A program made the position numbers and the translations under genes. Positions 1 through 16,002 of a stretch of DNA of 64,000 nt are shown here, piece by piece. Positions within the stretch are counted from its first letter, which is position 1; each line of letters starts with the position of its first letter. The notes beneath the pieces were generated by a model, which worked only from the letters and a program-made list of their open reading frames with translations, did not search any database and had not been told where the DNA came from. Source of the stretch: Haloarcula taiwanensis (lineage in GTDB: Archaea > Halobacteriota > Halobacteria > Halobacteriales > Haloarculaceae); assembly GCA_002844335.1 (NCBI GenBank), contig CP019157.1, forward strand, positions 1 through 64,000, written 5' to 3'.

Positions 1-40
1 AAGACAACGACTTCTAGAGGTATCCCAATTACCTCCTTAC

Positions 41-259: not shown

Positions 260-283
260 TTAGCGATAGAACAGCGAAGAGCA

Positions 284-667
284 TCACGGCCCCTCCGTAA
301 GAGTGCAGCCGGCGGTCAGCTGGCGCTCGGCGAGGACATCGGCTTCCCCACCGAAGTCAACCGCGACAGCAGTCACCGTCGAGTTCGCTGGCACGTCGAA
401 TCCCCACGTTGTCGGCCTGTCGATGGTCATGGAGGCCGTTTCACGGCCAGCGACATCTATCAGGATACGGTCAGCGCTTCCGGGGTCCGCGTGCCCGCGC
501 AGATGGCAGTCCCCTGGCGAGACACTGTCAGCGCCAGAGAGTTCGACGGACGGGCCTGCAGTGTCCGAGAGCGCGCCGGCCGCCCCCATCGCGAGCGCCA
601 CCGCGACGAAGCCCAGCACGACCACGCCCACTACCCCAGGATGTGGCACGCAGATTCGCTTACTCAT
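284..667 (-). CDS. Exported or membrane-anchored small beta-rich protein, unknown
   Basis: 127 residues. An N-terminal hydrophobic segment (about 12-32) after a basic start looks like a signal anchor or signal peptide. The rest is polar and beta-prone, with two cysteines (near residues 54 and 121) that could form a disulphide outside the cell. The start overlaps the stop of the upstream gene by 4 nt (ATGA), so it is translationally coupled within the minus-strand operon. I recognise no family. Confidence 0.65.
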   Translation of the reverse strand: MSKRICVPHPGVVGVVVLGFVAVALAMGAAGALSDTAGPSVELSGADSVSPGDCHLRGHADPGSADRILIDVAGRETASMTIDRPTTWGFDVPANSTVTAVAVDFGGEADVLAERQLTAGCTLTEGP

Positions 668-870
668 GCTGCCCTCCGGTCGACGGCCGGGTCCGTTTCA
701 TCGCCCCAGTAGGCTACCAACTGCCCGACAGCAAGACTCGACAGCGCGAGCCCCAGCCACCACAGCATCGGGCCGCCGATCCCGACCAGCCCCAGCCCGA
801 CGACCAGCGAAGCGAGCTTCCGTGGGTGACCGCGGGCTTCGGCAACCCACGAACCCTCGGGCACAATCAC
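664..870 (-). CDS. Small two-TM membrane protein, unknown
   Basis: 68 residues with two hydrophobic stretches (about 20-37 and 38-54) separated by a tight glycine/tryptophan turn, and a charged tail. It overlaps both neighbours by 4 nt (ATGA at each end), as expected for a real operon gene. No recognisable domain. It sits between a winged-helix regulator and an exported protein. Confidence 0.6.
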   Translation of the reverse strand: MIVPEGSWVAEARGHPRKLASLVVGLGLVGIGGPMLWWLGLALSSLAVGQLVAYWGDETDPAVDRRAA

Positions 871-1190
871 GAGTCTCCCCCCAGCGCCCGGTCAAGACTG
901 TCCCGCATCCCGGCCAGCACCTCATGGCCGTCCTCGGTCACCGAGTACGTTTCTCGTCGCTTGTTCGGTCCCGACGCTTCGACCAGCCCCGCCGCTTCCA
1001 GTTCCGAGAGTTGTTCCCGGACCCAGCGGTCACTCGTGCCGAGTCCCTCCTGTGCTTTCTGTGCGATGAGTCCGCGCCAGCCGTCGCCGTCGTGGGCTTC
1101 GACCACAAGCAGGCAGGTCTGTGCGACCGGCGAGAGGTTCGCGAAGGCCGCCCAGTCCGGGTCGTCCTCGACGCCACCGAGGTCCGTCAT
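867..1190 (-). CDS. Winged helix-turn-helix DNA-binding protein
   Basis: 107 residues from the ATG that overlaps the upstream stop (ATGA). The order is helix (AQTCLLVVEAHDG), helix, recognition-like helix (SDRWVREQLSELEAAGLVE), then a wing with a basic tip and TYSVTEDGHEVL. This is the MarR/PadR-like archaeal winged-helix pattern. An upstream extension to 1244 lacks such structure and was rejected. Being inside the membrane-protein operon, it may regulate the element itself; its target is not visible. Confidence 0.75.
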   Translation of the reverse strand: MTDLGGVEDDPDWAAFANLSPVAQTCLLVVEAHDGDGWRGLIAQKAQEGLGTSDRWVREQLSELEAAGLVEASGPNKRRETYSVTEDGHEVLAGMRDSLDRALGGDS

Positions 1191-1495
1191 CCAAGCACCT
1201 CCGTTGTGAGCCAGTCGACGGCCCCTTTCCCGGCCACGTCCCACGCGGTGCCAGCCCCAGAGACGATATCACCGATCATCTGGCCCACGTCGACGCTGAC
1301 CCAGCCCGTCGCCATCCCCAGCACGAGTGCCCCGACGGTGAGCGCGCCAAACGTCGCGACTGTGCCGACGGCCGCCACCAGCCCGCCGATGATACTCTTG
1401 ATACGCCGGAACTTGTAGCCGCCGTACACGACAGCAGTGACCAGCGCCACCTCTTTCCCGAACTCGGCAACGAGCGCGCCGAACCAGTCGAACAT
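1187..1495 (-). CDS. Small membrane protein, unknown
   Basis: 102 residues. A basic patch (KFRRIKS, about 28-34) precedes a long glycine/alanine/valine-rich hydrophobic stretch (about 35-66), followed by an amphipathic tail ending near a tryptophan. Probably one or two membrane helices. It starts at the final base of the big surface-protein gene (1-nt overlap) and ends overlapping the winged-helix start. Unknown family. Confidence 0.65.
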   Translation of the reverse strand: MFDWFGALVAEFGKEVALVTAVVYGGYKFRRIKSIIGGLVAAVGTVATFGALTVGALVLGMATGWVSVDVGQMIGDIVSGAGTAWDVAGKGAVDWLTTEVLG

Positions 1496-4400
1496 CAGTC
1501 GTCACTCCCTCTGTTGCCGCCACTGCGACGAGCGATGATGTTCACCTGCGGTTGGTCGTCATCGGGCGAGTTGTTCGCGCGATACTCTCGCACGAGTTGG
1601 ATGACCGCGAAGCCAGCGATGACCACCACCAGCACGAACGCATCGGAGTTCACCAGCGCTGTCAGCAGGTCGCCCTCACCGAGCCATTGCAGCGCCAAAA
1701 CACCGAGTACACCGACAATCGCAATCCACCGGGCCGTCGTGAACTCGCCGATCCGCTGCAGGAATACGAGCGATCCGATAGCGAGACCGGTGACCGCCAG
1801 CATCGCGCCCAGTTCCGGTCCGATATCGATGTAGCCCGACTGAATGGCTGCCACCAGTGCCGCCGCGCCGACAGCGCTGGTCAATATGGTGTTCTCACCG
1901 AGCGTGACGATGGCGTCACCGAGCGCTTCGATGCTGCTGGTGACGCCGTCCTCGACGATCCCGCCGACGCGGGGCAGCTGTCCGGCAGCCGCCCCGGCGC
2001 TGGCCGCGAGTGAGTCAACCACGTTACGGGAGCGCTTGGGCCGCCGGCCGATCACGAACAGCATCGCAATCGAGCCGAACAGTGCGACCAGCCCGACGAG
2101 GTTGCCCTGGTCGGCCGCGCCGAAGATTGTCGACGCCCCGTCCGGGTTGGCCGTCGGTGCCGACGCCGTTTTGACTCGAATCACCGAATCGATGTTGTCT
2201 TTCGGCACCGTCATCGGCTCACGGCCTTGCACGCGGTCGAATCGCTTGGTCGTGTCAACCTCATAGACGCCGTACCACGAGCCCTCGGTCGCGCCCAGAT
2301 ACTCGACGGTGAACGACTCACCCGAGCGCTGTCCCGGAGCGACGGTAAACGCCGGGCTGGTGGCGTTCGTCTGTTGTTCTGGCACGCTCGCCCGGATAGT
2401 GCCATTGACCGGCGAGAGTTGAACGGGTGCGGTTCGGACGCCGACCTCGCTGCCTGCAGTGGCTTCCGGGAAGTGAACCCGCTGGGCGTGGCGTGTCGAG
2501 AGTTCGGCGTAATCGCCCTCTGCTGAGTAACTCTCGTTGACGCCGTAGTGAAGCTGCTGGGACTGTGACGTGTTCCCGACACTGATGTAGGAATCGCTGG
2601 CCCAGCTGTCCAGCCGGACCCGCGAATCGAGATCAGTCCCGACGGGTGTCGCATCGAGGACAGTCACCGCGCCGTTGTGAACGTCGACCTTCGAGCCGAC
2701 CGAGCGCACTTCGACGGTCGTTCCCTTCGGGACGGTGCCGCCGGTCAGTTCGGCAATGTCGATCTGCAGTTCGGTGCCCTGCATGGTGCGGGCCGACGCC
2801 GGTATCTGGGTCCAGCTCCCGGACTGCCCGACCCGCACTTCGAGCGACCGCAGGGAGATGATGTTCTGTGCGTGCGGTATCGTCAGCGTGGCACTCTCGC
2901 GGCTGGAAAGGTACGTTCGCGAGATGTTGTAGCGCTCGCTGAACGCTTCGTCTTGGAAGGTGACCGCCCGCCGGGTCGTCAGCTCGTGCTGGTAGTCAAC
3001 GTCGACGGTCGGCGCTGGGGCATCAGTGCCGGTGTCGCCATCGCCAGCGACGACGGTGACGTTGTTCTGGCCGGACTGCAGCCAGCTCTGATTCGCCGTG
3101 AGCGTCGTCGTGTCGTCTTGGCTGAGCGTGCCGGACATCCGCACCGGCTGGCCGTTGATAATGACACCAGCGTCCTCGGTGACCGTGCGTTCCGTGTAGC
3201 CGATAGCCACGTCGACAGCGCCCGACTGCGTGCCGACTGTGGCATTGCTGACCGACGAGTCGAACTGGTCAATCTGGACGGTCTGCGATTCGCCCTCATT
3301 GAGCTTGCCCAAGTATTCCGCTTCGGCCATGCCGTCGCCGTCGATATCCAGCGTTGGGTCCTCGGTCGTCGTGGTGACCGTCGAGCCGGCTTCGACGCCG
3401 ACCTTGTGGCCGGTCGCCACCTGTGCGGTTTGTGACCCGGACTGGATGTCCGGCAGCGACCGCGTAACCGTCTCGCCATCCATCAGGACGCCGTCATACG
3501 AGGCATCAGCCGTCCCGTCGCCGTTGATATCTATCGACGGGTTCTTTGTCGCCGTGCGCTCGGTGAACGAGAGGTCTGTATCGACTTTACCATCGTCAAG
3601 TGAGACCGTCGCAGTGTGTGAGCCGGTTGGGACGTTCGATGCGCTGACCGTCGCTGTCTGTCCTGGTTGAAGGATGCCAGAGTAGCTTGCATCGGTGGAG
3701 CCGTCGCCGTTGATGTCGATGCTCGGGTTTTCGGTTCCGGTACGGGCTGTATAATCAAGCGAGTAGTCGACTGCCCCAGCACCGCTCACGGATATACTGT
3801 CACCCAGAGCGACCGGGAAACTCTTAGTTTGCGACCCTCCACCCTCCACAAAAAAGCTCTTAGACGTGCCGCTGCCCGCCGAAATTGTCACATCTGCCCC
3901 GGTTTTGTAATCAATATGGATGTACGAATCGTAGGTATATCCGTCGTAGACGAATGATTGAGCACCGCCACCGCTCCGTTCAAAATGGATATCATGGTCT
4001 GGACTCTTGTCTTTTTTAACGGAGAGAGTGACATTATCCGAATTTTTTGGGTCCCATGTCTCAATATCGACGGTTTTGGTTCGCTTGTTGAAACTCACTC
4101 CAGACGCCACTAGCGTCCCTTCAGTGTGGTCTTCGTCTACTCCTTCACGAGTGAGATATATTTCATAGGACCCACCACTAGAATATTCCTCCATATGAAA
4201 TGTAATCTCAGTAATTGCCGAATTTGGAACCCGTTTTAATTCGGATGACCACTTATTACCAGCTACGTAGGTATGCTCTCCCTGAGAGTATGAGTCTCCG
4301 CCAGAGACGGTGAGTTGCTCGTTGCTCGGGTTTAGGTTTCCTTCGAGGTTCAGCGAGTCCGACCCGCCAGCCGATAGCGTGCCACTGTCTGAGGCCGATT

Positions 4401-5454
4401 TTAACGACGAATCTCCTTTAAACGTCACCGACACGTCGTTCGCCAGAGTGTTCCCATCTGCCGTGTAGCTGAACGTGTCGCCGTTGGCAAGGTTCGAGGC
4501 TGAAACCGTCCGGCGGTTTGATGTCGACTTACCGATGAACGTCGTGGAAACGTTCGTCGCTGGCTGGTTCCCATCGATATTGTAATCGATAGTCTCACCG
4601 TCCGACAGCGTTGTCGAGAACAGTCCCGCGTCCGTCGTGGTCTGTTCGACGCCCGTGAACGTCACTTCGGGATTGCGTGGCTCGAGGTTGTCGCCAGCGA
4701 CAGACAGTGGAATCAGCTGGCTGTCGATCGCACCGATGACCTGTTTCGTGTCGCGTTCGGTGTTGACCTGCCCGGTCAGCGTTATCTCGGGGTCCGTCGC
4801 ACTGTCGAGGTCCCGAACCTCATACAGGTGGGTCGTGCCGGTCGTCGCCGGCTGACCGTCGATCTGCAGTGTCCCGCCGAACGTGATCGTGTTCGTCGAG
4901 AACCCGCTCACCCAGAACTGGGCTTCGCCATCGCGGACGTGCACCTCTTCTTGATATACCGCGCCGGACTCATGCACGACACCGACGACGGCTGGCACCG
5001 ACCCGTGCTGTTGTTCCAGCCAGTCCGTTGAGACGCCGACCCAGCGTCCGTCGTGGGTTCGGTCGTCAGTCAGATTCAGCGCGGGCTCGCCGTCGACAGT
5101 CGTTGTCGACGCCCGGAGTGTCTGTGCGCCCGCCGAGGCCGACAGCGACGGTTTGGTCGTGTTACTCTCGACGTGCGTGTCTGGTACCTTCGACAATGGT
5201 TTGTCTGGGTCGCGTGGCGCGGTACTCAGCTCTTCGATAGGGTCGCTGGCTGGCTCGGCTGGCGTCGACGCTGACTCTGCCTGCTGGCCGTCAGCAGTCG
5301 GCGTCGAGTAGACGGTCCCGCTGTTCGCGTCGTCGGGGGCGTTCGACTGTGGTGCGAACAGCATCGGCGCGGCGACGGACACGACGACGACCGCCAGCGC
5401 CATGCCGACAATCGACAGTTGTTCGCGAGAGAGTGGCAGGTCATCACTGTCCAT
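1495..5454 (-). CDS. Giant membrane-anchored surface protein with DxDGDG repeats
   Basis: 1,319 residues. The ATG at 5454 is preferred because a strong GGAGGTG site lies just upstream; a TTG 15 nt earlier is the alternative. Order: N-terminal membrane helix (about 15-35), Ser/Thr/Pro-rich stretch, long beta-rich extracellular region, then about five C-terminal membrane helices (from ~1118 to ~1290) and a short charged tail. Around residues 575-770 there are repeats of about 65 residues, three with calcium-binding-like loops (DINGDG twice, DIDGDG once) and a fourth degenerate. The middle part (about 400-520) is more AT-rich and Lys/Asn-rich, suggesting local replacement. A role as surface, spike or adhesion protein is inferred from architecture only. 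Confidence 0.8.
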   Translation of the reverse strand: MDSDDLPLSREQLSIVGMALAVVVVSVAAPMLFAPQSNAPDDANSGTVYSTPTADGQQAESASTPAEPASDPIEELSTAPRDPDKPLSKVPDTHVESNTTKPSLSASAGAQTLRASTTTVDGEPALNLTDDRTHDGRWVGVSTDWLEQQHGSVPAVVGVVHESGAVYQEEVHVRDGEAQFWVSGFSTNTITFGGTLQIDGQPATTGTTHLYEVRDLDSATDPEITLTGQVNTERDTKQVIGAIDSQLIPLSVAGDNLEPRNPEVTFTGVEQTTTDAGLFSTTLSDGETIDYNIDGNQPATNVSTTFIGKSTSNRRTVSASNLANGDTFSYTADGNTLANDVSVTFKGDSSLKSASDSGTLSAGGSDSLNLEGNLNPSNEQLTVSGGDSYSQGEHTYVAGNKWSSELKRVPNSAITEITFHMEEYSSGGSYEIYLTREGVDEDHTEGTLVASGVSFNKRTKTVDIETWDPKNSDNVTLSVKKDKSPDHDIHFERSGGGAQSFVYDGYTYDSYIHIDYKTGADVTISAGSGTSKSFFVEGGGSQTKSFPVALGDSISVSGAGAVDYSLDYTARTGTENPSIDINGDGSTDASYSGILQPGQTATVSASNVPTGSHTATVSLDDGKVDTDLSFTERTATKNPSIDINGDGTADASYDGVLMDGETVTRSLPDIQSGSQTAQVATGHKVGVEAGSTVTTTTEDPTLDIDGDGMAEAEYLGKLNEGESQTVQIDQFDSSVSNATVGTQSGAVDVAIGYTERTVTEDAGVIINGQPVRMSGTLSQDDTTTLTANQSWLQSGQNNVTVVAGDGDTGTDAPAPTVDVDYQHELTTRRAVTFQDEAFSERYNISRTYLSSRESATLTIPHAQNIISLRSLEVRVGQSGSWTQIPASARTMQGTELQIDIAELTGGTVPKGTTVEVRSVGSKVDVHNGAVTVLDATPVGTDLDSRVRLDSWASDSYISVGNTSQSQQLHYGVNESYSAEGDYAELSTRHAQRVHFPEATAGSEVGVRTAPVQLSPVNGTIRASVPEQQTNATSPAFTVAPGQRSGESFTVEYLGATEGSWYGVYEVDTTKRFDRVQGREPMTVPKDNIDSVIRVKTASAPTANPDGASTIFGAADQGNLVGLVALFGSIAMLFVIGRRPKRSRNVVDSLAASAGAAAGQLPRVGGIVEDGVTSSIEALGDAIVTLGENTILTSAVGAAALVAAIQSGYIDIGPELGAMLAVTGLAIGSLVFLQRIGEFTTARWIAIVGVLGVLALQWLGEGDLLTALVNSDAFVLVVVIAGFAVIQLVREYRANNSPDDDQPQVNIIARRSGGNRGSDD

Positions 5455-5656
5455 CAGAATCACCTCCAACAGCGTTCAGGGGGGTCCCCCCTTCCGTTCC
5501 TGTTCCAGATACGCGCGCGTACCGTACGGAACTTTTCTTCCGCTCGCGGTGATCGGGGCCGCGGCGCCCGCCAATCCGGCCGCCACAGCCGATTGTCGTG
5601 AACGTAAAAGGCCGGTCGATATCGGTCATGACTAGCGGCGTTGCTGGGTCAGTCAT
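5444..5656 (-). CDS. Small basic protein, unknown
   Basis: 70 residues; overlaps the ATPase stop by 4 nt (ATGA) and the surface-protein start by 11 nt. Gly/Arg-rich centre (about 24-48) with no membrane segment. The two overlaps argue for translation, but composition alone would not. Function unknown. Confidence 0.45.
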   Translation of the reverse strand: MTDPATPLVMTDIDRPFTFTTIGCGGRIGGRRGPDHRERKKSSVRYARVSGTGTEGGTPLNAVGGDSDGQ

Positions 5657-7194
5657 CGGCCACGACCTCCGGTCGCGCCGGGGCCAGTGCGTCTCGGGAT
5701 GCGTGCCGCCACGATCTCCGTGCTACTGTCGGGGTTGAACATAATATCATAGTGGTTCTGGGTCGTTTTGATCGGGTTCTCCGGGAACGTGCCGTCAGCA
5801 TACGGGCTCGAAAGTTGCTCGAGCACCTCTGGCGCGTCACCAGAGATATCGATGATGCCGTCGCCGGGCGCGAGGACACGCAGCTCGTGCACAGCGCCAC
5901 CGGCCGCGCGGTACTCGTTGAGAATTGTCGGCTGGTCCTCGTCGTCGGTCGCCACCTGAAGCTCCTCGACGACCATGCCGTCGTCGTCGCTGGTCGACAC
6001 GTCGACGGCTTCTGGAATCCCGAGCCGCAGCTGGAACTCTGGCGTGTCGTGTGGGTAGCCGAGGTCCGAGAACTGGAACTCCGAGAACCGGTTCTCGTTG
6101 TAGCACAGCCCGAAGCCAATTGGTCGCTTCGAGAGGAGATCGTTGTCTTGCTCGATATCGCGGAACGGCTTTGGAGCCTCGCTCTTGGTCGTCCGATTCC
6201 CGCGTTCATTATTCGACAGCTCGACCCAGAAGTCGAACTCTTTGAGCCAGTGATTATGGACGTCTTGTTCGTGGTGGCCGTAGCCGATTAGCGACAGCCC
6301 AGCCGACCGCATTTCCTTCGAGATGTTCGCCATGATCCGCACGCACTCATACGTCCAGTGGCCGGATTCACCGCCAGACGCAGATTCCGGAGCGACCATG
6401 CCGAACTCGTCGATATGCGCGGTCATCCAGTTACGCTCGCCATCATCGTCAACACGGAGTCCATCGAACGTGCGAGCGGCCAAGAACCCGAACCACCAGT
6501 GCGATGCCGGCGTCGGGTTCGCCTCGTTTTTCGGCACGAACTCAGGCTGCTTGACTGTCGCATCCGCCGTCGACAGCGCATCCTCACATTTCCGGAAGTA
6601 CGGGTCCGGGAACACCACGTTGTACGTGCCCTTAGGGTGATCCTGTAGCCGCTCAACGAGTTCATAAACGTCACTGTAGTATCGCACGTCCCGACAGAGT
6701 TCGTCGGGATCGGGCTCGCCACGGTCGACCACTTCCATCCACCGGCCTTCGATATCGACACCACTGGGCAGCCACAGCGTTGTCCAGTCACGCATCCGTC
6801 GCCAGTCCGAGCTTTTCTGCCGTCCATTTCTGACGATACGCTCATCGTTGTGTTCCATCTGGTACGTGGCAAACTGGTCAGCGACGGTCGATTTCCCGGA
6901 GCCCTTCGGGGCTTCAACCATCGTCAGTGACGCTCCGGGTGAGCTCACCGTCGACGGCCCCTCTGCAGCGCTCTCGATATGCACGAGAAAGTCCGGGTAC
7001 ACGCCCGATAGCGCCGCTCCCTCGCGTGGATAGAACGCCTCTGGGTCGAACGCCGGGATATCGAACCGGGTTCGAATCTCTTCAGCGTCCTCGTTCCACA
7101 TCGGGTCTGGCTCGTTGCCATAGACGATCTGTGCGCCCTGTTTCGTCTGTTCGGTGAATCCGTCCTGTTCTGACTTTGGTTTTCTCTGTGACAT
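5653..7194 (-). CDS. P-loop ATPase of HerA/VirD4-like type
   Basis: 513 residues. Walker A APKGSGKST lies near residues 95-103 and a Walker B-like HIDEFG near 261-266. A later GHHEQDVH stretch sits where HerA/FtsK/VirD4-type motors carry a sensor motif. No membrane helix is evident, so it probably acts in the cytoplasm. It lies between the MCM helicase and the big surface protein in an operon full of membrane proteins. Its job may be DNA packaging, DNA transfer or assembly. The P-loop is secure; the subfamily is an inference. Confidence 0.7.
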   Translation of the reverse strand: MSQRKPKSEQDGFTEQTKQGAQIVYGNEPDPMWNEDAEEIRTRFDIPAFDPEAFYPREGAALSGVYPDFLVHIESAAEGPSTVSSPGASLTMVEAPKGSGKSTVADQFATYQMEHNDERIVRNGRQKSSDWRRMRDWTTLWLPSGVDIEGRWMEVVDRGEPDPDELCRDVRYYSDVYELVERLQDHPKGTYNVVFPDPYFRKCEDALSTADATVKQPEFVPKNEANPTPASHWWFGFLAARTFDGLRVDDDGERNWMTAHIDEFGMVAPESASGGESGHWTYECVRIMANISKEMRSAGLSLIGYGHHEQDVHNHWLKEFDFWVELSNNERGNRTTKSEAPKPFRDIEQDNDLLSKRPIGFGLCYNENRFSEFQFSDLGYPHDTPEFQLRLGIPEAVDVSTSDDDGMVVEELQVATDDEDQPTILNEYRAAGGAVHELRVLAPGDGIIDISGDAPEVLEQLSSPYADGTFPENPIKTTQNHYDIMFNPDSSTEIVAARIPRRTGPGATGGRGR

Positions 7195-7196
7195 CG

Positions 7197-9146
7197 TTAG
7201 CTCACTCCAGTCAAATCAGCCGGCTCACGGCGGTTCACGTCGCCCCCGCCGAGCCCGGCGTTGTGGACAATCGGGATATCGAGGTCGGCCAGCGACCGGC
7301 TGACCATTTCCTTCGCGACTTCGACATCCGCCATCGTAATCTCTTCACGCAGGTTCGCCCGAGCGCTCGCCTGTGCGACACGTCGAGCGGCCCCGAGCTT
7401 GCGGGCAGTCACGGGTACGGGCGGGCCATGATACCGGCCGTCCGCGTCCGCGAGTGCATCGCGATAGCGCTCGGGCAGCGCCATCTTTTGCTCTTCAAAC
7501 CACGCGGCCAGCGCCTCGATGACCCTGTCGTTCGCGGGCGTGGGATGCAGCTGTCGGGCCCGCATCAGGACTGCACGGTACTCATCCATCGATAGCACTG
7601 GGTCGATAGCATCGGCGTCAGCCGTGTCGAGTGCCTGCCCAGTCGCGTCTTTCAGCGATGCTGACCACGTCCGAATCATCGACTCAGCCAGTTCCCGGAC
7701 GTGTTCGCGGTCCTGCTTCGACCGCATCTGCATGATAAGGTCAAACCGCGACAGCAGCGGGCTGTTGATGCCCAGCGCGTCGACCAGCGACTCGTCACCA
7801 GCGAAGTGACCACCGAGCGGGTTGCACACGCCCAGCAGCCCGCACTCGGCTGGGAGCGTCATCGACTGGCCGGCCAGCGACAGTGGCAGTATCTGGTCGG
7901 CCAGCGCCGAGTGCATCTTTTCGATGGCGTCCTCGCCAGCCTTGTCCAGCTCGTCGACGACCGCGATCCCCTCGTGGGCGCGCACCAGCACGCCGGGCTC
8001 GATGCTGAACCCGCCGTCGGAAAAGTCGTCTTTCACCGCCGCCGCGGTCAGTCCCGGCCCCGACACACGCTCGCCGCTCGCGAACGCCGACCGGGGCGCG
8101 ACCGCCGCGGCCCACTTCGCCAGCACGGACTTCCCTGTGCCCGGGTCGCCGGGTAGCAGGACGTGAACGTCGCCCCGATAGTGCGAGCCGTCCGGCCCGT
8201 CGAACGTCGACGCGCTGACCAGCTGCAGCACGAGCCCGCGAACCACCTGCCGGTCCCGTGGGTGCGAGCCCGACACGAACTTCGGGGCTGCAGCCGCCAT
8301 CAGCACATCCGCAGTCGACGGGTTCTCGATATCCACGTCGAAGGACTCCGGGCGCTCGCGAAGGCGCTCGAAGAGGTCCCGCTGGTCGGCCGTGAACTCT
8401 GCGTCCTGATAGGTCTGGCCGGCCGCTTGCACGGAGTTCACGACGACCTGTGGCTCGGGAATCGGCCCGCCACCGCGGAACTGCAGCTCACCAACGAGCA
8501 CCACGTCCTGACAGTTCGCGATGGCCCCATGTCCCGCGAGGTCGCCCTGCAGGTGCGCGATGATATCCGATGTGTCACCGCCCAGTGCCGCGCTGCTGGG
8601 ATTCTCTAACAGGAGCTTCTGATAGTCCTCATAGCGGGACTGGTCGGGATTGATCCGGAACGGGCCTTTCATCTCACAGCCGACGCACTCGAAGGGCTCG
8701 ATGTACTGTCCGGGCTCGAATGGTATCCGGGTGAGGGTGCCGCAGCGCTGGCACTCGAAGGCCGCTTCGACGAGCCGCGGCTGCACCTGCGTTCGCTTCG
8801 CGACCTGCCCTTCGAGCGCCAGCAGTTGCCCACGTCGGTCGCTCGGTGAGAACTCCCCGGGCGCGGTCGTGTGGGACTCAGGCAGGTTCTCGAAGCGCGG
8901 TGTCGCCTGCCCCAGCGACGTGTCGACCGGCAGCGGCGTGTCCGTGATGCCCGCTTCGACGTACTCAAGCATCGAATCGGGCGCATCGAGGATATCTTCG
9001 GCCAGCGTTGGGTCCCATCGCGCGAGCGCTGTCCAGTCCAGCGTCAGCGACGTGTCATCAGGATAGCGCTGGGCCAGCAGCGCCACCTTGTCGCTGACCT
9101 GCCAGCGGAGATACTGAGCGACCCGCTCGGACAGCTCGTCAGTCAT
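7197..9146 (-). CDS. mcm: MCM-family replicative helicase, divergent
   Basis: 649 residues, near the usual archaeal MCM length. The start ATG overlaps the GINS-like stop by 8 nt (ATGACTGA). The N-terminal domain carries a four-cysteine zinc site (CQRC near 132 and CVGC near 153). The AAA+ core has Walker A GDPGTGKS (~332), Walker B VVDELDK (~397), a sensor-1 asparagine in GVCNP, and an SRFDL arginine-finger motif (~465). The C-terminus has a helical winged-helix-like tail. It unwinds DNA at forks as a hexamer. Linker regions differ clearly from a typical chromosomal MCM, so this is probably the element's own replicative helicase. Confidence 0.92.
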   Translation of the reverse strand: MTDELSERVAQYLRWQVSDKVALLAQRYPDDTSLTLDWTALARWDPTLAEDILDAPDSMLEYVEAGITDTPLPVDTSLGQATPRFENLPESHTTAPGEFSPSDRRGQLLALEGQVAKRTQVQPRLVEAAFECQRCGTLTRIPFEPGQYIEPFECVGCEMKGPFRINPDQSRYEDYQKLLLENPSSAALGGDTSDIIAHLQGDLAGHGAIANCQDVVLVGELQFRGGGPIPEPQVVVNSVQAAGQTYQDAEFTADQRDLFERLRERPESFDVDIENPSTADVLMAAAAPKFVSGSHPRDRQVVRGLVLQLVSASTFDGPDGSHYRGDVHVLLPGDPGTGKSVLAKWAAAVAPRSAFASGERVSGPGLTAAAVKDDFSDGGFSIEPGVLVRAHEGIAVVDELDKAGEDAIEKMHSALADQILPLSLAGQSMTLPAECGLLGVCNPLGGHFAGDESLVDALGINSPLLSRFDLIMQMRSKQDREHVRELAESMIRTWSASLKDATGQALDTADADAIDPVLSMDEYRAVLMRARQLHPTPANDRVIEALAAWFEEQKMALPERYRDALADADGRYHGPPVPVTARKLGAARRVAQASARANLREEITMADVEVAKEMVSRSLADLDIPIVHNAGLGGGDVNRREPADLTGVS

Positions 9147-9468
9147 CGCTGTCCTCCGTGGTCGGCGTGACCGAGTCGCGCCACTCTTCGAGTCGGGCAA
9201 CGAGGTCCTCGACGAGCGCGCGCTCCTGGTCGGTGACGCCATCCCAGTTGACCGCCATCCCGGCAGCCCGGAACGACGCCAGTTTCAGGAGCTTCCCGGC
9301 CCGCTCGTCGGCCAGTTCGGTCGTCAGTTGCACCGCGTCGTCGGTGTCGATCTCCCCGTCGTCGACGGCAGTCTGTGTGCGCTCGAAGATTGTCGGTTCG
9401 GCCAGCTGGACGAGTGACGCCGCGTCCTGTTCGCGAGCCCGGGCCGCCCGGATTGCTTCGATATCCAT
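9139..9468 (-). CDS. GINS-like (Gins51-type) replication factor
   Basis: 109 residues. The N-terminal pattern (MDIEAIRAARAREQDA, then an FERTQTAVDD helix) and the central RAGKLLKLASFRAAG resemble the A-domain signature of archaeal/eukaryal GINS Sld5-Psf1 (Gins51), where an R-GK-L-LA helix is typical. The B-domain appears missing or minimal, so it is shorter than chromosomal Gins51. It sits immediately upstream of MCM with an 8-nt coupled overlap, and a ribosome site (GGAGGTG) precedes its start. GINS activates MCM within the CMG complex. The family call rests on pattern recognition and position. Confidence 0.6.
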   Translation of the reverse strand: MDIEAIRAARAREQDAASLVQLAEPTIFERTQTAVDDGEIDTDDAVQLTTELADERAGKLLKLASFRAAGMAVNWDGVTDQERALVEDLVARLEEWRDSVTPTTEDSDD

Positions 9469-10268
9469 TATCCCGGCGGCACCTCCTTGGCGCGGCCAGC
9501 AACGTCGGCCAGTTCGTTGCTATTGGTCACGAGTTCCGACAGCGACGAGTTCATCGCCGGGAATATCTCGCTGGCCAGCAGCCACTCAAGCCGGACTGAC
9601 GGCCCGCGAGTCAGTGAGTGCCACCAGTCGCCGTGGCGGTCCAGCACGTCCTCGATGAACCCGCTACGGACGTGCCCTTCGGTCATGTGGATGATATCCT
9701 CAGCCCACGCCATCACCTCAGACTCGACGCGGGGCGGGTCCCGTAGCGTCCACCGAAGCATCCCATGCTGTTCGACGGCGCGCTGATGCAATCGTGGCCG
9801 CCCAGCGACGTACTGAATCCGTTCGGCGTCTTTGACGCCCTCTTCATCAGAGAACTCCCCGACCCGCTCACGCAGCAGTTCAGTGGCGTCCTGAAACGCC
9901 GGCAGCAGCACCTTCCGAATGAGCCGCCGCCGGAACGCATCAGCAGTCTCGTCGTCGCTGGGTGCCTGGTCACAGATTGCGACCCGGTCGTCCGCATCTG
10001 CCATGAGGCAAGCGACTTCCCAGCGGTCTTGCACGAGCTCCTCGTGCCACGTCTCCGGGGTTTGCCCGCCCGACACCACGTCGACGGCGTGGCACCACTC
10101 CAAGACCTCGGTGCGACTCTGGAACCCATCGCGAAGGGACTGCTGCAGGTGCCGCTGCTGGGCGCGCAGCGAGTCGAGCCCAGCTGCGAACGAGCGGTCG
10201 ACCGACCCGTCGTCGCTCGCGAGCCATTTGAGGGCATGATGCCCGTCGGCCGCCATCGGGTCAGTCAT
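9468..10268 (-). CDS. Element protein of unknown function upstream of GINS-MCM
   Basis: 266 residues from the ATG that overlaps the upstream stop by 8 nt; an open frame extends further upstream only as a shadow of the preceding gene. Mostly helical, acidic and soluble, with many Trp residues in the second half and no membrane segment. It ends on the first base of the GINS-like start. Position suggests a replication or assembly accessory factor. I recognise no motif. Confidence 0.65.
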   Translation of the reverse strand: MTDPMAADGHHALKWLASDDGSVDRSFAAGLDSLRAQQRHLQQSLRDGFQSRTEVLEWCHAVDVVSGGQTPETWHEELVQDRWEVACLMADADDRVAICDQAPSDDETADAFRRRLIRKVLLPAFQDATELLRERVGEFSDEEGVKDAERIQYVAGRPRLHQRAVEQHGMLRWTLRDPPRVESEVMAWAEDIIHMTEGHVRSGFIEDVLDRHGDWWHSLTRGPSVRLEWLLASEIFPAMNSSLSELVTNSNELADVAGRAKEVPPG

Positions 10269-12069
10269 CCGCATCAACCCCCTGTTGTGGCGACGACGGC
10301 GAGAGGTTCGTTGACGGGTTGTTCCCGCCGTGTTCGTCGTCGAGCGCTTTCTGAATCTCCGTGCGAACACGGTCGACGATCTGCTGGCCTTTCTCGTGGT
10401 CAGACCATTCCAGCTCGGTGACTGCCTGCAGAACTTGGTCGAAGGTCTTGCGCTCTTCGTACTCGTGGCGCTCGGTCTGGACCTGTGCCTGCACGTCGTT
10501 CCAGTGGGACGGTCCCCAGTCGACTTCGAGCGAGCCGTCACGGGCTTCGTGGCCCTCGATCAGCGCCGGCAGCATTGCCAGCCCCAGCCCGATAATCGAC
10601 GAGCCCAGCGCCGCGACTGTCCCGAGGTAGACCGCTGCCCCGCCACCCAGCGCTATCGCGATGAATCGCCAGTTCCGACGGGCTACCCAGTTTGACACCG
10701 TTGCCGAGATAGCCGCCGGCAGTGCCGCGATGCCCTCACCTTCGGGCGGGTCCGCGAGGTCCGCTTCGTCGACCTCTTTCGTCAGTGTTGGCGAGAACTT
10801 CAGCCGCGCCGGCTTGTGCCGCAGCACCTTGTCGGACTCTGGGTCGACCTCGAAGAGTTGGTCGAGGTCGCCTTCGCCGCTGTCGTAGGACTTCCAGTCC
10901 TCGGTCGGTATCTTCGCCGGGTCAGCCCAGTAGCGGGCCAGCATCGGCCGAAGGCCGGCTATCGGCGCGTACAACTGGTCGCCGTGTCGGTACACAGACT
11001 TGATTTTGTTCGGCACACGCCGCGTCCCGACCGTTTCGTCACCACTCGGTGAGATAGCGCCCTGCCGGAGTTTTCGCTGGAAAAACCCGGCTTTCGAGAG
11101 GTCGCTGTCCCGGATGGAAAGCATCACCGGCAACGCCAGCAATCCCATCAGGATGCCGACCGCGATGGGTGCGTTCGCGAGGATAATCGACGTTTGCCAC
11201 GTACCAACTATCGCTGCGATGCCGATCACGACGGCGACCACGCCGGCCCAGTAACTCACTCCTTTTAGCGTCCCGAGAATCGTTCGCGAGAGGATGTGCT
11301 TCGCTGATGCCCCCGAGAACATGATGCCACAGATAGCCGGGATAATCAGATTCAGCGCACCCCAGCGCCAGAGGTCGCCTTTCGAGTTCGTCGGGTAGGC
11401 CGGGGATGCCGTCAGCGGGTTCGTTTGGTGCGCGAACCGCCAGCGTGCGCCTTCGACCCGGCTGCCGTCTTGTTCCAGCCACGCCGTTGCCTGCCACTGC
11501 TGGTCGTAATGGGACTGCAGTTTCAGCTTCGACGCCGAGTAACCGCTATCTGCCTCGAAGCTAATCCGCTGGACAGTCTGGTTCGCCGCGTAGGTCTGCT
11601 GTGTCCCGTTGACGCTCGTCGTCCGCTCTTGCCAGAACACCACGACGAACTCGTAGTCACCGACACTCTCGCCGAATGCGGATGTGTAGGCCAGCAGGTA
11701 GTCCGTTTTGAGTGCCTGATTCCGACCGAGCGGCTGGTAGGACGACTGGGCCGGATTCAACGGCAGGTACTTCAGCACGATCCCCCCGGTCGGGAGCATC
11801 CGCGTCGATTCCGGCGGCCCCTGTGAGCCACCACTTGATATCTGGTCGCCGCCCGTCCGCAGCTCCGAGATGTTGAACGGTCCCGGCGCTGTCCAGTCGC
11901 TCGACGCGCTGTCGCCCGTCTCGTTGGTCGCTTGGTAGTGTCCGTCAGCCACCGCTGCCGATGCGGGCATCGCGAACGCGCCCGCCACGGTGACAGCGAC
12001 GAGGACGACCGCAACACTAACCGCGGCGACGGCGGCCCTATCACCTCCCGAGAGTGCGTGTCTGCTCAC
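10261..12069 (-). CDS. Multi-pass membrane protein with extracellular N-domain
   Basis: 602 residues. Order: signal peptide (about 12-38, ending ASA), extracellular beta-rich domain of about 190 residues with several N-glycosylation sequons, three closely spaced membrane helices (about 235-320), cytoplasmic domain (about 325-460), two more helices (about 470-510), and a charged helical tail of about 90 residues. The layout recalls polytopic hubs of secretion or virion assembly (for example VirB6-like proteins), but I see no diagnostic motif. It follows a 44-residue gene by 2 nt. Confidence 0.7.
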   Translation of the reverse strand: MSRHALSGGDRAAVAAVSVAVVLVAVTVAGAFAMPASAAVADGHYQATNETGDSASSDWTAPGPFNISELRTGGDQISSGGSQGPPESTRMLPTGGIVLKYLPLNPAQSSYQPLGRNQALKTDYLLAYTSAFGESVGDYEFVVVFWQERTTSVNGTQQTYAANQTVQRISFEADSGYSASKLKLQSHYDQQWQATAWLEQDGSRVEGARWRFAHQTNPLTASPAYPTNSKGDLWRWGALNLIIPAICGIMFSGASAKHILSRTILGTLKGVSYWAGVVAVVIGIAAIVGTWQTSIILANAPIAVGILMGLLALPVMLSIRDSDLSKAGFFQRKLRQGAISPSGDETVGTRRVPNKIKSVYRHGDQLYAPIAGLRPMLARYWADPAKIPTEDWKSYDSGEGDLDQLFEVDPESDKVLRHKPARLKFSPTLTKEVDEADLADPPEGEGIAALPAAISATVSNWVARRNWRFIAIALGGGAAVYLGTVAALGSSIIGLGLAMLPALIEGHEARDGSLEVDWGPSHWNDVQAQVQTERHEYEERKTFDQVLQAVTELEWSDHEKGQQIVDRVRTEIQKALDDEHGGNNPSTNLSPSSPQQGVDADD

Positions 12070-12071
12070 GG

Positions 12072-12206
12072 TTAGCCCCCCGACAGAGCGCTCGCGACGC
12101 CGTTGACGTAGTCTGTCGTTGCCTCCGGGGCCACGAACATCGCGATGGCGACGAGCCCGACCGCGGCCAGCATGACCGCACCCCAGCCCGAGATGTTAAT
12201 CTGCAT
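12072..12206 (-). CDS. 44-residue single-TM protein
   Basis: Begins MQINISGWGAVMLAAVG and has one membrane helix (about 8-27) followed by APEATTDYVNGVASALSGG. GGAGGCGG lies just upstream of the ATG. It overlaps the end of the upstream 119-residue gene by 11 nt and stops 2 nt before the next start, a tight operon fit. Size and shape resemble small major coat or pilin-like subunits, which is only a suggestion. Confidence 0.6.
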   Translation of the reverse strand: MQINISGWGAVMLAAVGLVAIAMFVAPEATTDYVNGVASALSGG

Positions 12207-12555
12207 CCACCGCCTCCTCTGCAGCCGCGCCCGTGTACAGCGCCAGCCCCACGACCAGCGCCGCCAGGAACACGATGAGCGTCTCTTTCGCCGTCAGTCC
12301 GAGAACCACTGTACCACCGCCAGCCAGTGCGCCAGCCCCGATGAACGACGCCGCCGCGCTCCAGAGGAATCCGCCGGCATACACGCCACCGAAAAAGCCG
12401 CCCACCAGTCCCGTCGTCAGCCGGGCCGGGCGGCCTTTGAACCACTTGATCGGGTAGGCTGTCTTTGTCAGCACCGACGTGTACTCGCCGATCACGTAGA
12501 ACACCATCCCGATGATGGCCCAGCCGGTCACCGTTGCCGTCGTCACGTCTGGCAT
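12196..12555 (-). CDS. Three-to-four-TM membrane protein, unknown
   Basis: 119 residues with hydrophobic segments at about 8-26, 47-65, 66-85 and 92-112, and a basic loop KWFKGRPAR between the first two. A clear GGAGGTGAG ribosome site precedes the ATG. The acidic C-terminus (EEAVDAD) overlaps the next gene. No known family. Confidence 0.65.
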   Translation of the reverse strand: MPDVTTATVTGWAIIGMVFYVIGEYTSVLTKTAYPIKWFKGRPARLTTGLVGGFFGGVYAGGFLWSAAASFIGAGALAGGGTVVLGLTAKETLIVFLAALVVGLALYTGAAAEEAVDAD

Positions 12556-12623
12556 CGGCTCACCTCCACGCTGTCCGCCGTTCTTGCTCGATACGTCCGC
12601 TTGATGTGTTCGTTCTGAATCAT
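12543..12623 (-). CDS. Possible 26-residue basic peptide
   Basis: A short frame reading MIQNEHIKRTYRARTADSVE then VSRCQT fills the only gap in this part of the operon and overlaps the next start by 13 nt. Its composition is basic, unlike its neighbours. It could be a real micro-protein or just leader sequence carrying the ribosome site of the next gene. Confidence 0.25.
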   Translation of the reverse strand: MIQNEHIKRTYRARTADSVEVSRCQT

Positions 12624-12627
12624 GAGT

Positions 12628-12912
12628 TTAGCCGTCCGTTCGGTTGTCAATCTGTTCGCGAGCTTTCAGCAGCAGTTTCAGCAACAACAGCGCCGCCAGC
12701 CCAGCGACGAACTTCGAGGCCGTCGCCTGCGTGATCGGCAGGACCGGCGTGGAGCTGACCAACAACGTCGCCCCGTAGAACAACTGTCCGAGGTTCGCCC
12801 AGCCCCACTGCAGTAGCACCGCTAGCACGTCGAACTGGAATGCCCCGAACAGTGTCGTCGCCGTTGCCGTTGCCGCACTTGCTGGGTGGGTGAGAAAGTC
12901 TTTGAGCGACAT
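12628..12912 (-). CDS. Small multi-TM membrane protein
   Basis: 94 residues, hydrophobic from about 14 to 80 (probably three helices), ending with a basic KAREQIDNRTDG tail. It overlaps the stop of the upstream 152-residue gene. One of a run of small membrane proteins; unknown family. Confidence 0.6.
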   Translation of the reverse strand: MSLKDFLTHPASAATATATTLFGAFQFDVLAVLLQWGWANLGQLFYGATLLVSSTPVLPITQATASKFVAGLAALLLLKLLLKAREQIDNRTDG

Positions 12913-13370
12913 CAGTTGATGAAGGCACCTCCGCCGGGGATGAAGTCCAGCGCAATCTCGATGGCTGTCCGCAGGTACGTCGAGTACGCGACCACGACAA
13001 TCGCGAACACAATCGCCGCGCCCAGCAGTCCCGCCGGTCCCGTCCAGTTGAAAAAGTCGATTAGCAACTGGACACCAGAGCCGATGACACTGAGCACTGG
13101 CTCACCGATTGCGGACCCAGCGTCGATGAGCGTCGTCGCGATGACGACCGGCACATCCACGAGCCCGAGGTCACCAACTGTCGACGACCGCGAATGGCCG
13201 AAAAACACGTAGTTGATGGCCCAGAGGACTTTCTCAACGACTCCCTCGACGCCGTTCAGCAGCGGCGTCAAGATGAGCCCCAGAATGAAGCCGGTCGGAG
13301 AGGACGCGAATGCTTTCAGCGACGGCGGGAGGGCAGGGCCATCGCCGCCGCCGTTGGATGACTGTGACAC
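12912..13370 (-). CDS. Membrane protein with amphipathic helices, unknown
   Basis: 152 residues. A polar Gly-rich start (about 1-14) precedes hydrophobic stretches at about 25-52, 65-85 and 110-140, and the chain ends in FIPGGGAFIN. The gap to the upstream gene is 2 nt. Pore-like glycine/valine-rich helices suggest a membrane assembly component. No homologous family recognised. Confidence 0.6.
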   Translation of the reverse strand: MSQSSNGGGDGPALPPSLKAFASSPTGFILGLILTPLLNGVEGVVEKVLWAINYVFFGHSRSSTVGDLGLVDVPVVIATTLIDAGSAIGEPVLSVIGSGVQLLIDFFNWTGPAGLLGAAIVFAIVVVAYSTYLRTAIEIALDFIPGGGAFIN

Positions 13371-13372
13371 TG

Positions 13373-13816
13373 TCAGTCACCCCCGGAAAGCCGTTGGGCT
13401 CCCTCTCGAAGGCCGCGCACGACGACGAACAGCGTCAACAGGGTGAACCCCACCGCAACGAGGTAGCCCCAGAGTCCGAACTGTTCGACGCTGCTGGCCC
13501 AGAGGTCCTGTTGATACCACTGCAGAATCGGGACGAACAGCTCACCCAGCACGCCCGATCCTGTCGGGGTCTCGCCGGTCGACACTTCCCCGACGAACGA
13601 CGTTGCGCCCTCGATGAGCCGCTCCGGGATGCCGAACAGCTCGTCGATATACCGCCGAAGGCCGATGTACACCGTCGCGACCGTCGACAGGAGTATCGAC
13701 GCGCCGACGCGAGTCCAGTTGACCGGGTTCGCCGTATCGACGATGCGGTAATCTTCAAACTTCGAGTTGGAGTCGGCGTTATTAATCAAGCCCGTCAGCC
13801 CCGAGTCATCAGCCAT
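13373..13816 (-). CDS. Two-TM membrane protein, unknown
   Basis: 147 residues with membrane helices at about 36-54 and 117-138, a loop containing VGEVSTGETPTGSG, and a basic tail. A GGAGGTCG ribosome site precedes the ATG. Part of the contiguous membrane-protein block. Confidence 0.6.
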   Translation of the reverse strand: MADDSGLTGLINNADSNSKFEDYRIVDTANPVNWTRVGASILLSTVATVYIGLRRYIDELFGIPERLIEGATSFVGEVSTGETPTGSGVLGELFVPILQWYQQDLWASSVEQFGLWGYLVAVGFTLLTLFVVVRGLREGAQRLSGGD

Positions 13817-13852
13817 CGGCAGCGACCTCCGAGTTGTGGGGCTGGCGAGCCG

Positions 13853-14134
13853 TCATTCGTCGACCGTCTCCTCCTCAGTTAGGCGGTCTGCCAGCCACTC
13901 TGGCACCGACATCGGCGGCATGGGCGGACCAGACCGCTCTAATCGGATAAACGAGGCAATCAACCAAGCGCTGCTGGCAGCAGCGACGATGCCTGCCGAC
14001 AGCACAGGATTCGTCGCGAATGGACGAACGATGAGGGTTGCAATGGCGGCACTGAAGTCGGCAGTCGGGACCACCACAACGGACCCAAACAGCAATACGA
14101 CCACTCCCAGCAAGTCAAGCTGGCGAGCCGTCAT
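13853..14134 (-). CDS. Two-TM protein with EEETVDE tail
   Basis: 93 residues with two hydrophobic helices (about 7-28 and 40-65) and a polar C-terminus ending LTEEETVDE. The upstream 170-residue protein ends VEEEETIDE, and the DNA around both gene ends is a 35-bp near-identical repeat (33 of 35 bases). The start overlaps the upstream stop (ATGA). The shared tail may be a sorting or interaction signal, or a mark of duplication. Confidence 0.6.
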   Translation of the reverse strand: MTARQLDLLGVVVLLFGSVVVVPTADFSAAIATLIVRPFATNPVLSAGIVAAASSAWLIASFIRLERSGPPMPPMSVPEWLADRLTEEETVDE

Positions 14135-14643
14135 TCGTCTATCGTCTCCTCCTCTTCGACGCCGAAGATATCCGTTGGCACGTCGATAGGCAGGCCCGGC
14201 AGCACATCGCCAGTCTCGTCCTCACGGAGATAGCGCACGACTGCGTACAGCCCGATCATCACCAGCCCGACAGTCACTGGGAACGCGAACAGTCCGGCCA
14301 ACGTCTCGCCCAGAACCGAACGCAGGACGGTTTCCGAGACATCCGCACCAGCAATCAGCAGATTCCCGGGAGCCTCGAAGAGCCCAGTCAGCAATGACCC
14401 AATCGCATCGCCCGCGTTGTTGAACGGCTGGGCAAAGAAGTTCGCCACCGCGTTGATGACATCAATGACTGCGACGACTGGCGAGACAATCAGGCCGACA
14501 ATCGACGCAGACAGCACTTTACCCGCGTCTCCACCATTCTGAAGGAAGTTCGTGATGCCGCTCAGAGACTCCTGTCCGCTGCCGTCACCGAGGCTAAGAC
14601 TCGGATCATCGCTGCCTCCGCCATCAGCACCGGTCTGGTTCAT
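14131..14643 (-). CDS. Membrane protein with acidic EEETIDE tail
   Basis: 170 residues. A polar Gly/Ser/Asp-rich N-terminus (about 1-35) is followed by hydrophobic stretches at about 40-66, 85-100 and 122-143, then an acidic tail ending VEEEETIDE shared with the next protein. GGGGTGAG lies before the ATG. Probably a two- or three-pass protein of the same assembly as its neighbours. Confidence 0.6.
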   Translation of the reverse strand: MNQTGADGGGSDDPSLSLGDGSGQESLSGITNFLQNGGDAGKVLSASIVGLIVSPVVAVIDVINAVANFFAQPFNNAGDAIGSLLTGLFEAPGNLLIAGADVSETVLRSVLGETLAGLFAFPVTVGLVMIGLYAVVRYLREDETGDVLPGLPIDVPTDIFGVEEEETIDE

Positions 14644-14649
14644 CCCGTC

Positions 14650-15237
14650 TCACCCCGCAATCCGGCGCTTGATCGGGTCGAACAGCCCCAGTAGGAACGC
14701 CGCCGCCCCCAGCAGCGCTGCAATGAGGATGTTCACCGGCGTCAGCAGGCCATCCCCGCCACCGCCGAAGATGCCACCGCCGCCCGATTCCTGCTGGACG
14801 ATCTCGCCGATCTCGATGGACTCCGCAGATTCGGAGTCGCTGTCCGTGCCGTCCTCTTCGACGAGGATACGGTAGCTGTCGTACTCCGACGAGTCAACGG
14901 CGAAGGTTTTCTCCGTGGTCTCGCCGCTGGCCGCCGACACCTGCCCAGAGTCAACCTGCGTAGTGATGCCGTCAGACACGCCATAGACAGTGTAATCGAC
15001 GCTCTGCCCGCTGGTGTTGGTCACTTCGAGGTAGACCTGCTGGGTCTGGTTGTCCACTGCGACGGTCTTGTCCGCCAGCGTGTCCGAGGTCGAAGTCTCC
15101 GTCGCTGTCGCGGTCTCGGTCGTCGCTGCGGCCGCGCCGCCAACGCCAGCGACGGCCATGCTGGCACAGATAAGGCCAGCCAGCAGCAGCGCAATCGGTC
15201 GTGAACTGTTCTTGTCAGTCGAGAATAGTCCTATCAT
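14650..15237 (-). CDS. Exported protein with C-terminal membrane anchor
   Basis: 195 residues: signal peptide (about 14-38, GGAAAA), Thr/Ser/Glu-rich linker, a beta domain of about 90 residues (KTVAVDNQTQQVYLEVTN onward), then a glycine-rich hinge and a C-terminal helix (about 165-187) closing with basic KRRIAG. This N-out, single-anchor layout is typical of archaeal surface or virion proteins. Overlaps the upstream stop by 4 nt. Confidence 0.65.
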   Translation of the reverse strand: MIGLFSTDKNSSRPIALLLAGLICASMAVAGVGGAAAATTETATATETSTSDTLADKTVAVDNQTQQVYLEVTNTSGQSVDYTVYGVSDGITTQVDSGQVSAASGETTEKTFAVDSSEYDSYRILVEEDGTDSDSESAESIEIGEIVQQESGGGGIFGGGGDGLLTPVNILIAALLGAAAFLLGLFDPIKRRIAG

Positions 15238-15776
15238 AGGTCTGAATCCCCGGTTTCGGGCTGGGGAACGCCCTGGTTGTCTGTCTGTTCGGTGCCGCCG
15301 TCGGTGGCCGCCAGCCGGGCAGCTGCAGTCGAGTCGTCAACCCTCGACGGACTCTGCAGCCGCCGTCGGTCAGCATCGGCATCAGCGCAATCGCCAGAAC
15401 AGTAGTAGAAGGCCGCTTGTCGTCGGAGCATCACCACCGACAGCGGCCCGAGTCGGCCCCGCCGCGGGCCCGAACTGCAGTGGACGACGGTATGCTCGTC
15501 AAAGCTGTCCCGGCCGGAGTGGTTGACAATCCGGTCGCCACAGTGGTCGCACGAGCCATCTACCTCCGGCGTGGCAACCTCATAGGCCACATAGCCGCCC
15601 AGCAGGGCAGCACCGACGCCGACGACCAGTCCGTCGACGATGCCGCCGCCGACAGTTGCCGCAGTCATCAGCGTCCAGCCGGCGTAGGCCAGCCCAGTGG
15701 CGGCGAGTCCGATACCGAGCCAGCCGACCACCGAGAGGTCCGACCGGCGCGCGTTGTCGACTTCGATGACGCTCAC
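15234..15776 (-). CDS. Membrane protein with cysteine zinc-knuckle domain
   Basis: 180 residues from a GTG preceded by GGAGGTGG. Two membrane helices (about 16-35 and 41-66) are followed by a soluble part with CDHC (~75), HC (~100) and YCSGDC (~127), a Cys/His set able to bind zinc. The tail is polar. It overlaps the stop of the first operon gene. The cytoplasmic zinc domain may be regulatory or a protein-docking site. Confidence 0.6.
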   Translation of the reverse strand: MSVIEVDNARRSDLSVVGWLGIGLAATGLAYAGWTLMTAATVGGGIVDGLVVGVGAALLGGYVAYEVATPEVDGSCDHCGDRIVNHSGRDSFDEHTVVHCSSGPRRGRLGPLSVVMLRRQAAFYYCSGDCADADADRRRLQSPSRVDDSTAAARLAATDGGTEQTDNQGVPQPETGDSDL

Positions 15777-15952
15777 ACGCCACCTCCAGCGATCAGGGTT
15801 GCTGTGAGATCCCGACTCGCGCCGGCAATCTCATGCCGTGTTCGCACGCGTCGACGGGTGTCGACCCTGTGCCATTCGGTTCGATACGGTTGATACGCGG
15901 GCTTGGCCGCGTTGGCCGGCGATTGTCGGTCGCCGGGGTCGTGTTCGCGCAT
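15773..15952 (-). CDS. First gene of the minus-strand operon, 59 residues
   Basis: Begins MREHDPGDRQSPANAAKPAY; basic, soluble and rich in Arg and Thr. Its TGA overlaps the GTG of the next gene, so it seems coupled. A TATA-like TTTATC lies about 57 nt upstream of the ATG. It may be a small regulator or a leader peptide. Confidence 0.5.
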   Translation of the reverse strand: MREHDPGDRQSPANAAKPAYQPYRTEWHRVDTRRRVRTRHEIAGASRDLTATLIAGGGV

Positions 15953-16002
15953 GGGTAGGGGTACTGTCCGAAGCTAGACTACGGACGCGACGGGAGTCGC
16001 GA

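Follow-up and report, generated by a model that had tools for sequence, protein, structure and literature searches.

The window, by which the whole stretch of 64,000 nucleotides that was analysed is meant, makes up the first 64,000 bases (1-64000) of contig C4, which has 100,322 bases and belongs to a 3.72-Mb haloarchaeal genome of four contigs. A compact module is located on its minus strand and runs from 15776 to 1495. The GC content is 61-65% per 4 kb across this part of the window (1-16000) versus 46-60% across 16001-64000, a contrast that marks the contig as a mosaic. In the direction of reading, the module consists of the following features:

12196..15776, minus strand: eight small, mostly membrane proteins (119, 94, 152, 147, 93, 170, 195 and 180 aa)
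10261..12069, minus strand: 602-aa membrane protein
9468..10268, minus strand: 266-aa gene upstream of mini-GINS, start set by analogy with the pNG300 annotation
9480..9486, minus strand: GGAGGTG, a putative Shine-Dalgarno-like signal, 11 nt 5' of the mini-GINS ATG
9139..9468, minus strand: mini-GINS, 109 aa, Gins51-like, GINS A domain only with no linker or B domain (open reading frame, profiles, alignment)
9139..9146, minus strand: 8-nt overlap ATGACTGA of the mini-GINS stop and the MCM start, seen in the sequence, with presumed translational coupling
7197..9146, minus strand: element MCM, 649 aa, C-terminal winged helix absent (Pfam, NF040949, alignment)
5653..7194, minus strand: 513-aa P-loop protein (ATPase), downstream of MCM, marker of the element family (phrog_22963, E 8.2e-11)
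1495..5469, minus strand: 1324-aa membrane-anchored protein

For the 513-aa P-loop protein, a role in packaging or transfer is a guess. Family searches with the 266-aa gene product gave no match. Outside the window, contig C4 also has another, divergent MCM gene (C4:76571-78229) and a strong Orc1/Cdc6 gene (C4:80023-81117), and a further MCM gene lies on contig C3 of the same genome. In the lower-GC part of the window, a Schlafen/AlbA_2 protein (PF04326, E 8.3e-16) stands beside a 1299-aa Eco57I/type IIG-like restriction-modification protein, and this region (29399-34878) is likely a defence locus. A DUF6414 protein (PF19952, E 2.5e-34) is encoded at 26631-27473.

The mini-GINS frame opens with an ATG. 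The MCM frame is listed as 7197-9242, and a start at the ATG at 9146 yields a protein of 649 aa, which equals the annotated length of the pNG300 orthologue (35979-37928). With this start, the 8-nt overlap proposed in the initial, sequence-only reading is exact: ATGACTGA is common to the end of the 109-residue gene and the beginning of the MCM gene. At the other end of mini-GINS, the stop codon of the 266-aa gene overlaps the ATG by 1 nt (TAATG). Based on these 1-nt and 8-nt overlaps and on the GGAGGTG sequence, mini-GINS and MCM are probably co-expressed, with coupled translation.

The downstream partner matches PF00493 (E 3.9e-48) and PF17207 (E 2.1e-14) and retains the OB domain, the zinc Cys pairs, GDPGTGKS, DELDK, the SRFD region and the lid; we take these motifs to be the zinc Cys, Walker A/B and arginine-finger features of MCM. 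The aligned element MCMs stop short of the C-terminal winged helix, a stretch that is present in all four cellular MCMs of the alignment, and NF040949 is matched up to position 595 of 682 by the element MCM versus 680 of 682 by a cellular MCM. Two related MCMs from loci that carry no mini-GINS (L072 and L078) likewise have no winged helix. In the MCM tree, element and host MCMs are separated with support of 100/100. As judged from its domains and its position in the tree, the protein belongs to the MCM helicase family and lies outside the core haloarchaeal MCM clade. MCMs of this shortened kind may need some other aid to loading, and together with the co-synthesis suggested by the gene overlap this would suit a mini-GINS that acts as a regulator or assembly chaperone, one that keeps the element MCM inactive or assists its loading and departs before unwinding. 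A further point in its favour is that an unrelated 131-198-aa ORF precedes MCM in all eight tailed haloviruses examined. Such a role is nevertheless doubtful, as the homology of mini-GINS described below is to a helicase component and not to a loader.

The window copy of mini-GINS has no match in Pfam, NCBIfam or PHROGs, and its link to GINS accordingly rests on relatives and on the host gene. In its own genome, the sole other match is a 314-aa ORF (L002; E 3.3e-6, 39%), which sits directly behind a 392-aa ORF, presumably the primase small subunit PriS. The C-terminal part of the 314-aa protein matches Gins51_C (PF22090) with E 1.3e-5, slightly below the cut-off; it also matches Sld5 with E 0.0058, below the cut-off, and NF053565 with E 1.9e-11. 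By these sequence matches, the genome keeps a separate, intact full-length Gins51 beside primase. The A domain of this host protein has an ERRxGKxxKxAS helix, as does mini-GINS, in which the R-GK-L-LASF string noted in the sequence-only reading is indeed present and reads ERAGKLLKLASF.

To place mini-GINS relative to host proteins, a host-only profile was built from the A domains of four full-length, AB-type Gins51 proteins (three PriS-linked and one from a Salinibaculum plasmid). The window copy scores 49.5 bits against this profile (E 2.7e-12 at Z=100,000) and all seven mini-GINS copies score 40.4-77.0 bits, while the best of 13,739 scored shuffles (14,000 made) reaches 16.6 bits and the 71 window ORFs used as controls score at most 3.6 bits. 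Profile-profile comparison (hhalign) of mini-GINS with Gins51 gives a probability of 99.4% and E 2e-21 over 104 columns. The copy from Halobaculum gomorrense aligns through residues 7-104 with positions 4-100 of the 102 in PF05916, the GINS helical bundle; its 20.8 bits (E 4.6e-4) compare with a cut-off of 22.3 and with 17.3 for host Gins51. Of the seven sequences that a PDB search returned at E≤1, six are GINS chains, with a best E of no more than modest strength (0.037). A search that came back without GINS would have spoken against the original proposal; instead, GINS was found by both the host-only profile and hhalign, and the 109-residue protein can be regarded, from sequence comparison, as a real homologue of the GINS A domain. 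The Gins23 model NF053565 matches three of the four copies scanned (the window copy and L037-L039, the scan leaving out L034-L036), with E 9e-4 for L037, 8e-4 for L038 and 4.5e-8 for L039, all below the cut-off of 120 bits. An assignment to Gins23 was rejected because the host AB-type Gins51 matches the same model.

The alignment with host Gins51 also defines what mini-GINS is missing. The protein ends at the point where the linker starts, and linker and B domain are absent from all seven copies. The Haloarcula-type copies have, in addition, an A domain whose central part is about 20 residues shorter than in host Gins51, which is a full AB protein with an acidic linker. As nothing follows the A domain in any copy and a beta-rich B domain is missing, mini-GINS is not classed as a complete Gins51 or Gins23. 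AlphaFold2 models, which rest on a shallow input of six sequences, show four helices for both the window copy (pLDDT 79.4, pTM 0.64) and the Halobaculum gomorrense copy (pLDDT 75.4, pTM 0.60). The structure-prediction check was at most mildly in favour. Of the VIA-align rows that reach Z≥5 for the window copy, 8 of 10 come from structures of GINS, CMG or the replisome (best Z 5.6), and the top 11 rows for the H. gomorrense copy (Z 4.3-6.3) all do so as well; in rows from large complexes, the chain was taken to be a GINS subunit from its length and range. A Foldseek search with the window-copy model returned nothing significant, with human GINS appearing first at E 2.9. Since, by the yardstick that VIA-align itself supplies, helical bundles can reach Z values of 5.6-6.3 by chance, the fold evidence is supportive and not decisive.

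The loss of a whole domain could suggest that mini-GINS is a functionless remnant, left by an accident that truncated a copy of host Gins51. This explanation is disfavoured and appears highly improbable: the open frame is retained in seven loci whose copies are 44-93% identical to that of the window, and dN/dS (Nei-Gojobori, 10 pairs from five sequences) is 0.17-0.32 for mini-GINS. The corresponding values for the element MCM are 0.06-0.16, and both genes are under purifying selection.

Of the 392 Halobacteriales genomes searched, 382 contain a match with E≤0.01; among the matches listed, nearly all lie in long frames as large as a full-length Gins51. Standalone mini-GINS was found in at least seven genomes. 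Relative to the window copy, the identity is 93% for pNG300, 83% for Haloarcula sebkhae, 85% for another genome of the same genus, 68% for Halomicrobium katesii, 50% for Halobaculum gomorrense and 40% for a second genome of the latter genus (G358). The element form of GINS occurs in 5 of 146 Haloarculaceae and in 2 of the 11 genomes from the genus of Halobaculum gomorrense, although a divergent copy may escape the search. Ten genomes with two matches were considered as sources of further mini-GINS, and in each case the matches proved to be full-length genes, stretches of contig present twice, or one gene split into pieces.

In six loci (the window and five other elements), the module genes that were found share the same order; the small genes are not all matched everywhere, and the 602-aa gene is shortened in Haloarcula sebkhae. 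Five of these six loci have the 8-nt overlap; for Halomicrobium katesii, the chosen start gives one of 29 nt. The seventh locus (L039), on a 2.9-Mb contig, has a rearranged module: a gene for a membrane protein is followed by those for a 277-aa protein, the ATPase and another membrane protein, then by mini-GINS, a 50-codon ORF and MCM, and here too starts and stops overlap. The MCM of this locus shares 43% identity with that of the window. The 50-codon ORF (L039 9277-9429) contains a Cys pair and is joined to its neighbours by TGATG and ATGA overlaps. In all seven loci, MCM thus follows mini-GINS directly or after this one short ORF, and both the overlap and the recurrence bear out the proposed coupling of a GINS-like gene to a mobile-element MCM.

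The 513-aa ATPase marks a wider element family, with 72 places listed in 62 of the 392 genomes. Among the best 27 of these 72, for each of which a stretch of at most 20 kb was covered, seven have MCM and mini-GINS, nine have MCM with no GINS, and 11 have neither; mini-GINS is therefore present in 7 of 16 places with MCM and in 0 of 11 without. Because the seven loci are related, these counts do not represent independent events. Two ATPase-carrying plasmids, pNG400 and pHsi55, have no MCM or GINS in 39-41 kb of each, and neither gene is found on the whole plasmid pNG100. In the stretches covered, mini-GINS occurs only together with MCM, and GINS is lacking from the majority of the more divergent elements that carry MCM, indicating that this MCM family does not need GINS in general.

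In the Gins51 tree, all seven mini-GINS fall on one side (82/86) on long branches. The six loci with the shared gene order have MCMs that group together as a clade (100/100), whose branch is long (1.25), while the L039 MCM pairs with that of L078, a locus without mini-GINS (99/96). This pairing requires at least two changes in the presence of mini-GINS on the MCM tree; either a single gain followed by losses or two separate gains may account for them. A viral origin of mini-GINS was rejected, as no relative was found among 50,697 phage records at E≤1 or in viral_contigs. The latter was scanned with short peptide patterns, which gave no match for mini-GINS, the MCM alignment or the ATPase alignment and is weak evidence of absence. 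The 513-aa ATPase likewise has no match in phages.

That archaeal mobile elements can carry MCM genes is well established, and the activation partners of these MCMs are assumed to be supplied by the host. On balance, mini-GINS is judged from its sequence to be probably an element-dedicated GINS A-domain scaffold for the element MCM, with host Gins51 lending a B arm or with none; the expressions "activator" and "half of a CMG" used in the sequence-only reading describe presumed functions. In this proposal, the A domain would self-assemble or co-assemble with host Gins51, dock on the N-terminal tier of the element MCM ring, and stabilise or activate this ring for element replication. In a mixed tetramer, host Gins51 would contribute the B arm; otherwise the element would dispense with it. 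In Thermococcus kodakarensis, Gins51 cut to Met1-Arg130 (the A domain) forms a stable tetramer with Gins23 and a dimer alone (PMC3114041). A second source places RecJ/Cdc45 and polymerase in contact with the B domain of Gins51; in yeast CMG, it is the N-terminal domains of MCM that meet Cdc45-GINS (PMC12035558). Based on this tetramer and these domain contacts, an A-domain-only subunit should assemble and reach MCM and should not hold Cdc45 or PolD, and since the B domain binds RecJ/Cdc45 and PolD elsewhere in archaea, the element would borrow the arm or go without it. No Cdc45/RecJ-type (DHH) gene is found on contig C4, and all six DHH matches of the genome lie on contig C1. The dedicated scaffold is favoured because of the homology, the occurrence with MCM in all seven loci, the selection, the assembly literature and the lack of a DHH gene on C4. 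Against it stand the nine related MCM-bearing elements with no GINS in the stretch read and the finding that in archaea with both subunits the MCM contact, where mapped, is via Gins23 and not Gins51 (PMC7776575). The same paper describes GINS homotetramers in Thermoplasma, with an MCM contact that depends on GINS51, and a single known GINS homologue in Haloferax volcanii. A bolder possibility, which we consider not very likely, is that the winged-helix-less MCM and the A-domain GINS constitute a two-part minimal helicase, a Cdc45-independent relative of CMG that would escape host control of helicase activation.

As A-domain truncations can assemble (PMC3114041), poisoning of mixed tetramers is also possible. 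In such a scenario, mini-GINS would be a decoy, an A-domain fragment that joins host Gins51 tetramers as a dominant negative with no Cdc45/PolD-binding B arm, and host replication would be slowed or host factors freed for the element. The host does retain one full-length Gins51. However, this explanation is unlikely: a host-directed decoy would not need the element MCM partner that is present in 7/7 loci, mini-GINS is seen in 0/11 MCM-less loci, and it is carried on plasmid-like contigs and one chromosome-sized contig.

Several known systems can be compared with the locus. Tailed haloviruses (BJ1, HSTV-1, HRTV-29 and others) also carry a mobile-element MCM, with 28-35% identity. Eight of 10 distinct viruses (16 records) were examined, with the Altiarchaeum and Methanocaldococcus viruses left out, and in these eight (L145-L152) the ORF of 131-198 aa lies directly 5' of MCM. 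Most of these ORFs look coiled-coil, and some N-termini read like ribbon-helix-helix, by reading and not by a match; they are a possible different companion of MCM. The idea that they are hidden GINS proteins was rejected, as no GINS was detected in any of the eight MCM regions: the best E from the GINS profile was 0.05 for the eight proteins themselves and 0.32 when the regions were scanned, and family matches are mostly of the coiled-coil kind. The window module may also resemble the haloarchaeal plasmid-vesicle plasmids of the apHPV and pR1SE type, which have a core of ORF6-9 and ORF17-25 and for which membrane proteins, an ATPase and, on 20 of 41 plasmids, MCM are described (PMC10818511). 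Plasmid unnamed2 of Salinibaculum sp. KK48 (NZ_CP129994.1, 560 kb) appears from sequence to be a second kind of replicon with GINS and MCM: it encodes a full-length, AB-type Gins51 of 264 aa (L004, 14815-15609; PF22090, E 4.9e-8), and its MCM is ~300 kb away. A separate Gins51 is encoded on another contig of what is apparently the same genome (G447).

The closest counterpart is the pair pNG3052/pNG3053 on plasmid pNG300 of Haloarcula marismortui, in which mini-GINS and MCM are 93% and 97% identical to those of the window, gene order and 8-nt overlap are the same, and nothing essential is different. On pNG300, an annotated AAA family ATPase (L153, 9079-10134) matches Orc1/Cdc6 TIGR02928 with E 3.4e-40, below the cut-off; by this match, the 39.5 kb of the plasmid include an Orc1/Cdc6-like gene as well as MCM and mini-GINS. 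The pairing itself is not new. In one sentence, with data not shown, Kristensen et al. 2014 reported that the pNG300 MCM adjoins a "C-terminally truncated GINS homolog" (PMC3972481). According to that paper, pNG300's is the only one of 13 outlier haloarchaeal MCM genes to adjoin a GINS gene, core haloarchaeal MCM genes do not, and MCM genes beside GINS genes occur in other archaeal groups (MacNeill 2010, cited there). No other report of the pairing was found in open-licence full texts, outside which most subscription papers fall. Added here to the pNG300 sentence are the recurrence of the pair, its domain anatomy and losses, a second gene order, selection and controls. Elements of this kind, with pNG300 as the example, offer a small, genetically tractable system in which one can ask which part of GINS suffices to activate an MCM ring and if the Cdc45-binding arm is dispensable.
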